From contig NZ_CM020866.1 in assembly GCF_009866525.1 (NCBI RefSeq), forward strand, positions 1,760,914-1,824,913: a stretch of 64,000 nucleotides of DNA. Direction: 5' to 3'. Positions 6,371 through 55,903 of the stretch are shown piece after piece (position 1 is the stretch's first letter; each line of letters starts with the position of its first letter). Source of the stretch: Spiroplasma poulsonii. Its GTDB lineage: Bacteria; Bacillota_I; Bacilli_A; Mycoplasmatales; Mycoplasmataceae. A model generated the notes under the pieces. That model did not search any database and had not been told where the DNA came from. It saw nothing but the letters and a program-made list of their open reading frames with translations. Both the position numbers and the translations under genes were made by a program.

Positions 6371-6715
6371 TTATAAATTGTGTTCTTTTTTGATTTGTTC
6401 AACGCGTTTTTTATATTCGCGTTGTTTTTCTTTGTCTAAATTGCTGTATCAGCTACGTTTTCATTCCTGACGAACTCTTACCAATTCAAACTTTTTCTTT
6501 TCTAACGCCAATTTGTTGGTTATTAGTTTGTATTCTTTTTGTTTTTCTTTAGTTAAGTTTTCAAATCAACCACTTTTTCACTGTTTCTCTCACTGTTTTA
6601 AAGCAAGGCGACCAGGGTGGTGTTCGATTTGGTATTGCTTTACCCGACGTTGTTCTTTTTGAACATCATTTTGATCATAATCAATTTTTGTATCAATATA
6701 ACTTGCTCTGCGCAT
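6371..6715 (-). CDS. Small basic helical protein with two W-x-NLxKEKQxEYK repeats (114 aa)
   Basis: ATG at 6713-6715 lies behind AGAAAGGACATGATGTT; the stop is TAA at 6371. Four to five TGA codons are Trp, so it is invisible with the standard code. Two copies of one motif can be seen, GWFENLTKEKQKEYK and SWYSNLDKEKQREYK, in an otherwise Lys/Glu/Gln-rich, probably coiled-coil protein. It lies between the coupling ATPase and the 6247 gene in the mobile cluster. A nucleic-acid-binding or structural role is possible but unsupported. Confidence 0.6.
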
Positions 6716-42717: not shown

Positions 42718-43892
42718 TTATTTTAAAGTTAAAATATAATTTTTACTAGTACGCTCATCAATTAAAAAAGCCGAAGTTGGTGTAAAACGATCCATTGCTA
42801 ACGCTTTTAGCGGAACTGGTGTTAAATAACCGCGGGCATTAAGAATATAACTTATATCCATTGATTGTGCACCAATAATGATAATGTTATCGTTAACCAT
42901 AGCATAGTTATTTGTTAACATATTAGGAATTATTCTAATAGTACCGTTATCTGCTAAAAATCAGCAAGTATCTCCTGACATTCCAAAAGCTACATTTCCA
43001 TTCCAATATCTTTCTTCACCAGTATCTGCTGTCGCTGTCAAGTTTCCATCTTCATCAATAAAACTTCCTTTACCATTGATTGCAATGTTTCCTTTTGAAT
43101 CATTGAATTTATCATAAGTTGAAGATGAAAACCCTAAACTAGTAAATCCAGTTGAAGGTTTAAAGATACTGATTTTTTTAAAATTATCATGAGAAATTCC
43201 TCAATTATCATTAATCATTACTAAGTTATCTGCCATTCCATTAAAACTAGTAACTTTCCCTGCTTCTTTATCAACAAAATAAGTTTTGTATGTTTTTCCA
43301 TCTGAGAAAATTGCTGAATATATATAGCTATTATTTGTAACTTTTGAAAAAGTTACTACATTAGAGCCAATAAATTTATAGTTACCTTGTGCGTCAATTT
43401 CGTACATATTACCAGAACTAAATCCAATATTAGTAATTTCTACATATAACATTAAATTTGAATTAATTGCCATAAAATCTCAAACACCAGAAAACGGCAC
43501 ATTAAGGGTTTTAACCGCACCTGATGTATTAACCAAAACGAAACTTGATCCCAAATTAATGATGTAATTAGTTTGGTCAAAGGAAAATACTAATTGTTGT
43601 TTAACCACCACCCTGGTGTCACTTTGACGTTTAAAGCAACAAAATTATCATTCCCTTTAACTAGAAATACTTCATTTGTTTCTCTTTCAACTCCAATTCC
43701 AATTGAATCAGTTCACTTAGATAATATTCTAAAATTCTTAGTCATTTCTTCTAATGAATAATCTTCTGTAATTTTATCAATTTTATTATTAATACTTTTT
43801 GCATGATTGATATGATTAATACTACTTGCTCCTGTACTTATAGAAGCCCCCGTTAAAATAGCAGTAATAATAAATGTTAACATTTTTTTCAT
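42718..43892 (-). pseudogene. Secreted protein of unknown family, frameshifted
   Basis: ATG at 43890-43892 gives a signal peptide (MKKMLTFIITAILTGASIST) without a lipobox Cys, then KITEDYSLEEMTKNFRILSK. The frame stops at 43600; the next frame takes over within 15 residues (VVVKQQLVFSFDQTNYIINL) and is open to 42718 (ends SKNYILTLK). The second part has repeated short strands around Gly/Asp (GNMYEIDAQGNYKFIGSN, GSFIDEDGNLTATADTG) suggestive of a beta-propeller-like exported protein. One base indel near 43605-43615 explains the break. Not recognised. Confidence 0.55.
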
Positions 43893-43928
43893 TTTTATGT
43901 TGCCTCATTTCTTAATCATCAAGGAAAG

Positions 43929-44015
43929 GGGCTACGCCCCCGCGTCGCTACGCGAACGCTCCCCCGCAAACAACACACGGGTAAAAATAAATTTTTTGCA
44001 CCGTGTGTTGTTTGC
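43929..44015. other. GC-rich hairpin cluster of plectrovirus type
   Basis: Three hairpins in a row: GGGG-ctacg-CCCC (43929-43941), GCGT-cgct-ACGC (43942-43953), and a perfect 15-bp stem GCAAACAACACACGG/CCGTGTGTTGTTTGC (43966-43980 with 44001-44015). The segment is far richer in G+C than its surroundings and follows a plectrovirus structural gene. Such hairpins act as replication or packaging signals in filamentous ssDNA viruses; here this is an inference. Confidence 0.5.
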
Positions 44016-44067
44016 TGCCTGTTTTTTCTTGGTCTATGTATGTATATATATTTGTATCATTTTGTTT

Positions 44068-44886
44068 TTATAAAAATCGCAAAATACCATTTAACATCGC
44101 AAGAGTAATAATTGCCCCAAGCAATAATTTAAAAGCAATATCAAAAGCAAAAAAATTACTAATATTATCTCAAAGCAAATTAACATTTTGCATTGTATTT
44201 ACTAATGCATTAGCATATTTTCCAACCTCTTTAATGCCGGGCAAATTATTAAATGCTCAAATAAAACCATTTTTTATATGACAAAATACATTATATCAAG
44301 TACAAGAACTATAAGGTAAATTTCAAATATCACCACCATTAATCTCATTATTTCAATCACTAGCATTATAAATGCTAAAATTAAACCCAAAAAGATTTAA
44401 AGTAGATTTACTAGGCAAATTTTTACTTTGAAAAGTAATTATATTAAAACCACGATATTTATTAGTGTCTGTTGTCATATCAAGCATTTTAACCTTACTT
44501 TCATAACCACCATTACCATTACCAGGCAATACATCAGTTAAATAATCTCAATTTGATAAATAAGAATAATAATTATCATTTGAATTTATTTTAAAAGCAT
44601 TTGCCAATTTTACTTGATATTGTGGGTCAGTACCATTAGAAACTCAAAAATTAAAAATCATTGATTTAGGATATAATAAAAAACCATTTTTTACAAAAAA
44701 CGAAAAACCTAAATTCCCAGTTAAACTAGTAAAAATTAAATATTCTTTATAATTAAAAACATCAAATAAAGTTCTTAAAATATTAGAATAAAAATAATCT
44801 AAAAGTTTAAACAATAAATCTAAATCATTAAAATTATCAGTTAATTTATCATTAAAATAAAACTTAAAATTATTTTGTTTTAAATT
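44068..44886 (-). pseudogene. Plectrovirus ORF1-like structural protein, C-terminal part
   Basis: The minus frame enters from IS copy H and runs 272 residues to TAA at 44068, using eight TGA as Trp. It contains WNNEINGGDIWNLPYSSCTW, NGFIWAFNNLPGIKEVGKYA and ends in a membrane helix (IAFKLLLGAIITLAMLNGIL). A large Asn/aromatic-rich ectodomain with a C-terminal anchor is the layout of filamentous-virus attachment proteins, and the WNLPYSSCTWYN-PGIKEV region resembles spiroplasma virus SpV1/SVTS2 ORF1. The N-terminal side probably corresponds to 45953-46104. Confidence 0.6.
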
Positions 44887-45952
44887 AGACTTCTTGCGAT
44901 ACCCTTTTTTATTAAAATATTATTATAAAATATAATTTATGAGGACATAAAAATATGAACAATAATAAATTTAATACTCTTAATGATAGAGAATGGTTAA
45001 GATTAACAGGAATAAAAAAATCCACTTTTAATAAAATGTTAGATATTTTAAAAGTTGCTGAAATAGAAAAATTTAAAAAAGGTGGTAAAACTAATAAATT
45101 ATCATTAGAAAATAGATTATTGATGACTTTATTATATTGACGAGAATATCAGACTTATTTTCATCTTGGTAAAAGTTTTGATATTAGTGAGGCTAATTGT
45201 TATCGTAATATTAAGTGAATTGAAGATATTTTAATTAAAAACTCTGATTTTCAACAACTTGCTGGTAAAAAAGCACTAATAAATGATTATTTTAATGATA
45301 AAACTATTATTATTGATGCTACCGAAACTCCAATCCAACGCCCAAAAAAAGACAAAAACAATCTTATTCTGGTAAAAAGAAAAAACACACGATCAAAACA
45401 CAAGTAATTATCGAACAAGAAACCAAAAAAATTATTGCAACAAGTTTTTCGCTCGGAAAAAATATGATTATGCTTTATTTAAAGAATCAAAAATCCCAAT
45501 TTTAAAAAATACCAAATTAATAGTTGATAGTGGTTATCAAGGAATACAAAAAAATCACAATAATGTTCTAATACCTACAAAGAAAACAAAGAAAAACCCT
45601 TTAAACAAAGAACAAAAGCAATATAATAGACTAGTTTCAAAAATGAGAATTATTATTTAAAATATTTTTGCTATTCTTAAAAAATTTAAAATTATTACAG
45701 AAAAATATCGTAATCGAAGAAAAAGATTTGGTTTAAGATTTAATTTAATTGCCTCAATTTATAATTTACAATTATTATATTTAACATAAAATATTTATTT
45801 AAAATTAAATAATTTAAATAATAAATTAATTTTTCGTTGTGGAAAAATATTAAATTTTTAAATAAAAAACATAATTAATTAAAATTATATTTTTCTATTA
45901 GTATCTTTTTTACAAATATTTGCAATTTTTTAACAAGTAATGCAAGAAGTCT
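44887..45952 (+). mobile_element. IS copy H (IS5-like), inside plectrovirus remains
   Basis: 1066 bp. Flanking triplets ATT and AAT differ and the virus gene does not rejoin, so a deletion accompanied or followed the insertion. Confidence 0.9.
44955..45789 (+). pseudogene. IS5-like transposase, inactivated
   Basis: Same one-base loss as copy A (near 45462), and the catalytic Glu codon of RIIIENIF is TAA (near 45658). It is a dead copy related to A. Confidence 0.8.
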
Positions 45953-55645: not shown

Positions 55646-55655
55646 GGGTTTTTAT
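55627..55655 (+). terminator. Phage late-operon terminator
   Basis: ATCCCTTATattATAAGGGTTTTTATTT, a perfect 7-8-bp stem and T tract overlapping the end of the structural gene. Confidence 0.82.
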
Positions 55656-55665
55656 TTGCCAAAAT

Positions 55666-55903
55666 CCACGAGCGTTCGCGCACATGTTTTCTAAAAAAAG
55701 ATTTTCCTTGACTCCAATTTAAAAATAGTGGAGAATTATGTATATCTGTAAATCAGAATGGAATGAAGATTTACAGATTTGAATAATTGTAGAGTACTCC
55801 ATACTTTTAGAATTCGCCGCAAGAAAAATTTTTTTTTGAAAACATAGTGCGCTCGCGCGTAATTTTATTGACTTTTTAAGAAAAATAGTGCATCTATATT
55901 GGC
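55666..55903 (+). promoter_or_regulatory. Phage intergenic control region
   Basis: Two copies of TTGACT-N7-AAAAATAGTG lie at 55708-55730 and 55868-55890, each near a start codon, and two GC-rich islands (GAGCGTTCGCGCAC 55669-55682; GTGCGCTCGCGCG 55847-55859) precede them. An inverted repeat TGTAAATC/GATTTACA sits at 55746-55774. This looks like duplicated phage promoters of one type. TATATT at 55895-55900 ends three bases before the terminase ATG. Confidence 0.45.

Follow-up and report, generated by a model that had tools for sequence, protein, structure and literature searches.

Three conserved hairpins at the right border of Rep-encoding Spiroplasma plectroviruses: a probable rolling-circle origin with a part in integration

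Plectroviruses, rod-shaped phages with single-stranded DNA, occur in large numbers in Spiroplasma genomes and have been linked to the rearrangement of these genomes. Many filamentous phages integrate by means of a host recombinase or transposase, and insertion of the IS30 type involves a target duplication and terminal inverted repeats. In their 2015 review, Krupovic and Forterre reportedly credit integration by Rep to eukaryotic ssDNA viruses and transposons, with filamentous phages borrowing recombinases or transposases. For plectroviruses, an account of S. citri (PMC8140453) already mentions integrated SVTS2 DNA. For Suturavirus, the genus of SVTS2, the ICTV profile infers replication by the rolling-circle mode and does not state the integration route (PMC8295915). 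No account of Rep-mediated plectrovirus integration, or of borders at hairpins such as those described below, was found in searches of an open-access library; subscription papers (the SVTS2 sequence, a 1999 paper on SpV1 and the 2015 review) may describe either.

Two groups of mobile elements are of interest for comparison. Helitrons are described as inserting beside a host A without target duplication, with a hairpin near the 3' end and precise circles (PMC4778049). The IS91 family is described as using a two-tyrosine HUH enzyme and having no inverted or direct repeats (PMC5714925).

The stretch of DNA analysed here (the window) is 64,000 nucleotides long and corresponds to positions 1,760,914-1,824,913 of a 1.97-Mb Spiroplasma poulsonii genome. 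On its minus strand, the end of a plectrovirus ORF1 is followed by hairpin 1, hairpin 2, hairpin 3, the tail TTTCCTTGA and then a chromosomal gene (Table 1). Provirus sequence gives way to host sequence between 43919 and 43918, or directly after CTTG, one base earlier. An earlier note on this DNA had pointed out a perfect 15-bp stem and two GC stems; all three are present, and the longer GC stem is not perfect. As single-stranded DNA, the region 43915-44030 folds with z = -5.84 on the minus strand and z = -7.09 on the plus strand, and on neither strand is any of 200 shuffles as stable.

Table 1. Positions of the plectrovirus remnant and its surroundings in the window.
Feature	Positions	Strand	Remarks
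Whole three-hairpin block	43928-44015	-	just past broken plectrovirus ORF1
Hairpin 1	43966..44015	-	perfect 15-bp outer stem, 43966-43980 paired with 44001-44015; AT-rich inner stem
Hairpin 2, GCGTTCGC-GTA-GCGACGC	43942..43959	-	7-bp GC stem, one bulged base
Hairpin 3, GGGGC-GTA-GCCCC	43928..43940	-	perfect 5-bp GC stem, 3-nt loop
Right-end tail TTTCCTTGA	43919..43927	-	same tail and border in related copies
Plectrovirus ORF1, 3' part	44068..44885	-	open frame 44068-44814, 248 aa; homology reaches IS border
IS copy truncating the provirus remnant	44886..45462	+	right limit approximate; transposase fragment 44955-45407, PF13613
Chromosomal flank	42718..43918	-	signal-peptide gene split over two frames; its start codon lies some 30 nt beyond the border

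The window copy is the orphaned right end of a provirus of the SVTS2/SVGII3 type, consisting of the hairpins and the 3' part of ORF1, and cut by an IS. The ORF1 homologue lies upstream on the same strand, matches PF12461 (1.5e-18) and is closest to that of SVGII3 (54% identity, against 51% to SVTS2); by tblastn, the homology extends to 44892. The three hairpins come in order and are followed by TTTNCTTGA, and the base after CTTGA is T. Rep is absent from the element, whereas relatives do encode it. Since searches with three phage protein sets found no further plectrovirus protein in the window, Rep included, the rest of the provirus is gone; no left end of this copy was found in the window either. 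The right flank of this copy was compared with 13 other genomes of the genus, which gave no useful match and did not reveal its own empty site.

The start of the IS, at about 44886, was placed from the start and stretch common to five copies in the window. Its transposase frame (150 aa, apparently the 5' part) occurs in near-identical form at 44955, 50248, 51380, 58072 and 62907, and these five copies surround the plectrovirus remnant and a tailed-phage module. The chromosomal gene at the border (42718-43922) is split into two overlapping frames with a break near 43600, which suggests a frameshift. The long frames in the window require UGA to be read as Trp.

The 11-mer GAGCGTTCGCG occurs twice in the window, at 43951-43961 (minus strand) and 55670-55680 (plus strand), and at no other position of the 1.97-Mb genome; chance alone should give about 0.06 repeats among GC-rich 11-mers, so the recurrence is weak evidence. 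The earlier note had placed the second copy at 55669, beside an unrelated phage module. The copy is real and starts one base later, but at 55670 the other hairpins are absent and the surroundings fold no better than chance. None of the 30 other unique matches of the hairpin scan (one of which, L057, is itself a chance match) contains the 11-mer, which exists because hairpin 2 drifted in the window copy only. A link between the two copies is rejected, coincidence being the most likely explanation. The copy at 55670 precedes a terminase-like ORF (PHROG 2, 1e-4). Within 55646-55903, the GC-rich strings GAGCGTTCGCGCAC (55670) and GTGCGCTCGCGCG (near 55848) flank the gap before this ORF and could be phage packaging or binding sites.

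The same note had likened the hairpins, beside plectrovirus remains, to the origin or packaging signal of an ssDNA virus, and had proposed a comparison with the intergenic regions of SpV1 and SVTS2. An equivalent block of three hairpins does follow ORF1 in SVTS2, and also in SVGII3, so that the plectrovirus intergenic match on which the note had staked its proposal exists; the SpV1 part of the comparison gave no match with R8A2B or C74. In SVTS2 (NC_001270), three like hairpins lie within a stem_loop annotated at 2190-2265, just after the ORF1 region and ahead of rep, to which the record assigns no function. SVTS2 resembles the window copy in its hairpins, its tail and their place after ORF1, and differs in the stem sequence of hairpin 1 and in not being a truncated remnant. 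In SVGII3 (NC_073761, about 6490-6578; Virgulavirus), the hairpins are present and unannotated. Among the phages, SVGII3 has the closest hairpin sequence (84.6% over 64 query bases), as it has the closest ORF1, but a P89 pseudogene stands between its hairpins and rep.

A covariance model built from 11 SVTS2-like right ends finds the window copy with E = 2e-10 and SVGII3 with E = 2.6e-14. It matches 6 of 14 genomes of the genus. Across the class, under stricter filters and a stricter cut-off than in the genus scan, 3 of 296 genomes match the hairpin model, all of the same genus. The model has no match up to E = 10 in SpV1 R8A2B, C74, SkV1 or MV-L1. A search of plasmids gave no match. A match in Halovirus HCTV-5 (E = 4) was discarded as chance, and a peptide-pattern search of viral_contigs and genome_contigs confirmed no relatives. 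A further diverged right end, L214 (G012:C3:1182237-1182334), reads CTTACTTG followed by TTATAG beside an ORF1 homologue; it stands outside the alignments described below. The SpV1-type viruses (R8A2B, C74 and SkV1; Vespertiliovirus) belong to the same virus family and have a distantly related ORF1. Unlike SVTS2 and SVGII3, R8A2B and C74 have an annotated transposase in place of Rep (of the IS30 family in R8A2B); R8A2B, C74 and SkV1 are without the triple hairpin, and the intergenic region is not shared.

Quite probably, the block forms the right end of Rep-encoding plectroviruses of the SVTS2/SVGII3 type when these are integrated, and serves as a rolling-circle origin and terminator, with integration mediated by Rep in a Helitron-like manner. 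The borders of related proviruses, all from one genus, as are the target data, are the first line of evidence. Right ends pass into chromosomal DNA immediately after CTTG(A), and the chromosomal DNA before a left end is followed at once by TTAASTAACACAAC. The A follows CTTG at 15 of 19 right-end host junctions and is missing at 4 (three of the right ends, L131, L046 and L034, have one target family in common). Phage circles join the same two ends, as CTTGATTAAC in SVTS2 and CTTGATTAAG in SVGII3, with the hairpin block just upstream of the junction CTTGA^TTAASTAACACAAC. A clear example is the provirus L253 of genome G012, which is SVTS2 (99.6-99.9% identity) opened at the CTTG(A)/TTAA junction: it measures 6825 nt from TTAAC to CTTG, and the SVTS2 record is also 6825 nt long. 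Another provirus, L254, is 6441 nt long and has a Rep 95% identical to that of SVTS2.

Uninterrupted copies of the target can be compared with occupied ones. At site A of G012, the borders align without gaps to uninterrupted copies in five other genomes, and at site B to those in 3 of 4 other genomes; one candidate empty copy, L171, failed to align across site B. Site A lies within a 100-aa ORF in G010, and site B at the end of a gene that we take to be pyrB. Site E is a repeated promoter-like sequence, AATTATATATAAAAC, of which 3 of 12 genomes contain 23 uninterrupted copies altogether. It is interrupted at ATATA^TAAAAC by the left ends L142, L143 and L246 and the right ends L034, L046 and L131, and the right end L076 lies two bases away from this point. 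No target duplication was seen in the comparisons of empty and occupied sites, and no terminal inverted repeats at the provirus ends. The exchange is not lossless throughout: sites A and B are each one A short, whereas site E is not, and site C (empty in G002 and G005) is irregular, with a right end of CTTG followed by GTAAAA and a left flank lacking 11 nt.

In the genome that contains the window (G000, L238/L007), site A is occupied by a diverged provirus, and in G012 (L236/L043) by a near-identical SVTS2. This difference in divergence suggests two separate insertions at one place. Head-to-tail arrays of SVTS2-type copies, with right ends joined to left ends (RE-LE junctions), are found at about 1142-1195 kb of G002:C1 and at about 65-87 kb and 786-796 kb of G005:C1. 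Four RE-LE junctions have an extra A.

The target itself was examined in seven genomes with the exact left-end core TAASTARCACAAC, which was chosen to avoid bias in the flanking letters. Its 42 exact matches comprise 20 RE-LE junctions, 16 host junctions, 4 second tandem copies and 2 unrelated coding sequences. After 3 host junctions that share a site with another were dropped, 13 independent left flanks remained, with A at -1 and T at -4 in every one and T at -3 in 10. The chance of both fixed positions is about 4e-11 (backgrounds 0.43 and 0.37; before correction for choosing the positions). All 13 flanks therefore read TNNA. Since the junction in the phage is TTGA^TTAA, the host targets resemble the phage's own site.

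Tandem units at the left end are a further feature. At host junctions they measure 79, 33, 21 and 38 nt, and inside arrays 9 and 4 nt. All begin at TTAA and are preceded by A, and the 21-nt unit ends in CCCA, not TNNA. Repeated cutting and joining at one point would leave such units.

Alternatively, integration might be the work of another enzyme that recognises the hairpins, either a site-specific recombinase of the host, for instance Xer on a dif-like site, or a transposase supplied in trans. SpV1 proviruses of the IS30 type are present in the same genomes, as are other IS elements, and some targets have been used repeatedly. Against a recombinase, the host flanks have in common only the T at -4, the A at -1 and a richness in T, with no long core; prophages of the Xer/dif type differ in this respect, there being no dif-like core at the plectrovirus target and only TNNA common to the 13 flanks. 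A transposase of the IS30 kind is opposed by the lack of target duplication and terminal inverted repeats, and neither enzyme leads one to expect tandem units starting from TTAA. This alternative looks unlikely.

The second line of evidence for a Rep-dependent origin is the conservation of the hairpins, which is one of structure and not of sequence alone. The 80 matches of the covariance model yield 30 unique right ends. When 28 right ends were aligned with MAFFT alone (omitted from the 31 unique matches of the hairpin scan were L057, a chance match, and the damaged L070 and L089), the stems were out of register, so an 11-row subset and a model-fitted alignment were used. In the 11-row alignment, made blind to structure, 97.0% of cells pair, compared with at most 49.3% in slid versions, and 4 of 31 pairs show a double change, a level reached by none of 500 shuffles. 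The model-fitted alignment of the 30 right ends tends to favour the structure; here pairing holds in 95% of cells, and compensatory double changes are found in 22 of 31 pairs, again matched by 0 of 500 shuffles. Hairpins 2 and 3 are conserved with pair changes among related copies.

Conserved hairpins may also serve in RNA, as nothing but a transcription terminator or 3' structure of the ORF1 transcript, with the borders falling there by chance or selection. They do come after the ORF1 stop codon, the R8A2B record has a putative terminator at the equivalent place after its own ORF1, and the fold is stable in RNA too (z = -5.13, 0 of 200 shuffles as stable). However, neither hairpin 1 nor hairpin 2 is followed by a long run of T, and in R8A2B the terminator consists of one hairpin with AT flanks. 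A terminator would also leave the single-position borders and the TNNA target unexplained, and the two roles could coexist. As the sole function it is less probable still than the action of a recombinase or transposase.

Hairpin 1 occurs with two unrelated stem sequences, each of them in both orientations, and is inverted in 6 of the 28 aligned right ends (L034, L038, L074, L105 and L035 relative to L041, and L122 relative to L002). By eye, L034 is the reverse complement of L041 over hairpin 1, and likewise L122 of L002. The two orientations recall the flip and flop of viral terminal hairpins. The Ff intergenic region has a comparable order of parts. Both this order (last gene, hairpins, rep) and the inversion of hairpin 1, as if it truly extruded, could speak for a packaging signal and second-strand origin whose borders arise by breakage of stalled ssDNA at the hairpins and random joining, but such breakage would neither account for borders that agree to within a base nor select host sites of the form TNNA. 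This is the least probable explanation, even if single hairpins may still have packaging or second-strand jobs.

A rolling-circle origin served by Rep calls for a suitable enzyme. The Rep proteins of SVTS2 and SVGII3 match PF23343 (7.9e-21 and 2.9e-17, respectively) and PHROG 3419, rolling circle DNA replication initiation (1.3e-68). They contain HFH and a pair of tyrosines separated by three residues (KYLAKY, KYVAKY), the motifs of a two-tyrosine HUH enzyme. Intact relatives of the window copy carry an HUH Rep with two catalytic tyrosines. A comparison of Rep with solved structures gave no match. Among the other proteins scanned, 9 of SVTS2 in one set and 8 of SVTS2 and SVGII3 in another, with part of the small ORFs included, no recombinase or transposase family was matched, which leaves some room for an unannotated or host recombinase.

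From the borders and the tandem units we infer the following course, including Rep as the actor, the exact nick and the job of each hairpin. Rep would nick the plus strand at CTTGA^TTAA and remain on the TTAA end. The nick would start rolling-circle replication and, after one round, end it. The displaced strand would run to the hairpins, where the second cut would be made; the hairpins may present the nick site or end the strand. Re-joining of the two ends would give a circle, and joining to a TNNA site of the host would give a provirus. In the latter case, the 5' end TTAA would be joined to the host 3' end TNNA, and the host base that follows would receive the 3' end CTTG(A).

This course resembles that of Helitrons in the insertion beside a host A, the lack of target duplication and of terminal inverted repeats, the hairpin near the 3' end and the precise circles. 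Helitrons such as Helraiser differ in having TC...CTRR ends, as opposed to TTAA...CTTG(A), and a RepHel protein with a helicase; the phage Rep has 309-345 aa and no helicase domain match. The plectrovirus target also does not require a T after the A. The IS91 family has in common with these phages a two-tyrosine HUH enzyme and the absence of inverted and direct repeats; its target is different, and the match of the phage Rep to Y2_Tnp is below threshold (0.0015, 19.0 bits against a cut-off of 20.9). Both parallels are best regarded as parallels of mode, not of membership.

With somewhat less confidence than is placed in the reading of the block itself, it seems likely that an ssDNA phage enters chromosomes through its own replication initiator at accessible TNNA sites, with the hairpins marking where the strand ends and with head-to-tail arrays growing as further copies are joined to resident ends. 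If origin, target rule and enzyme were defined, plectrovirus integration could be tested directly. Copies of the SVTS2 type are described as lying close together within a single repetitive region of S. citri (PMC8140453), and such a rule could explain this clustering. If the proposal is true, it would amount to a bacterial virus living much as a Helitron does.
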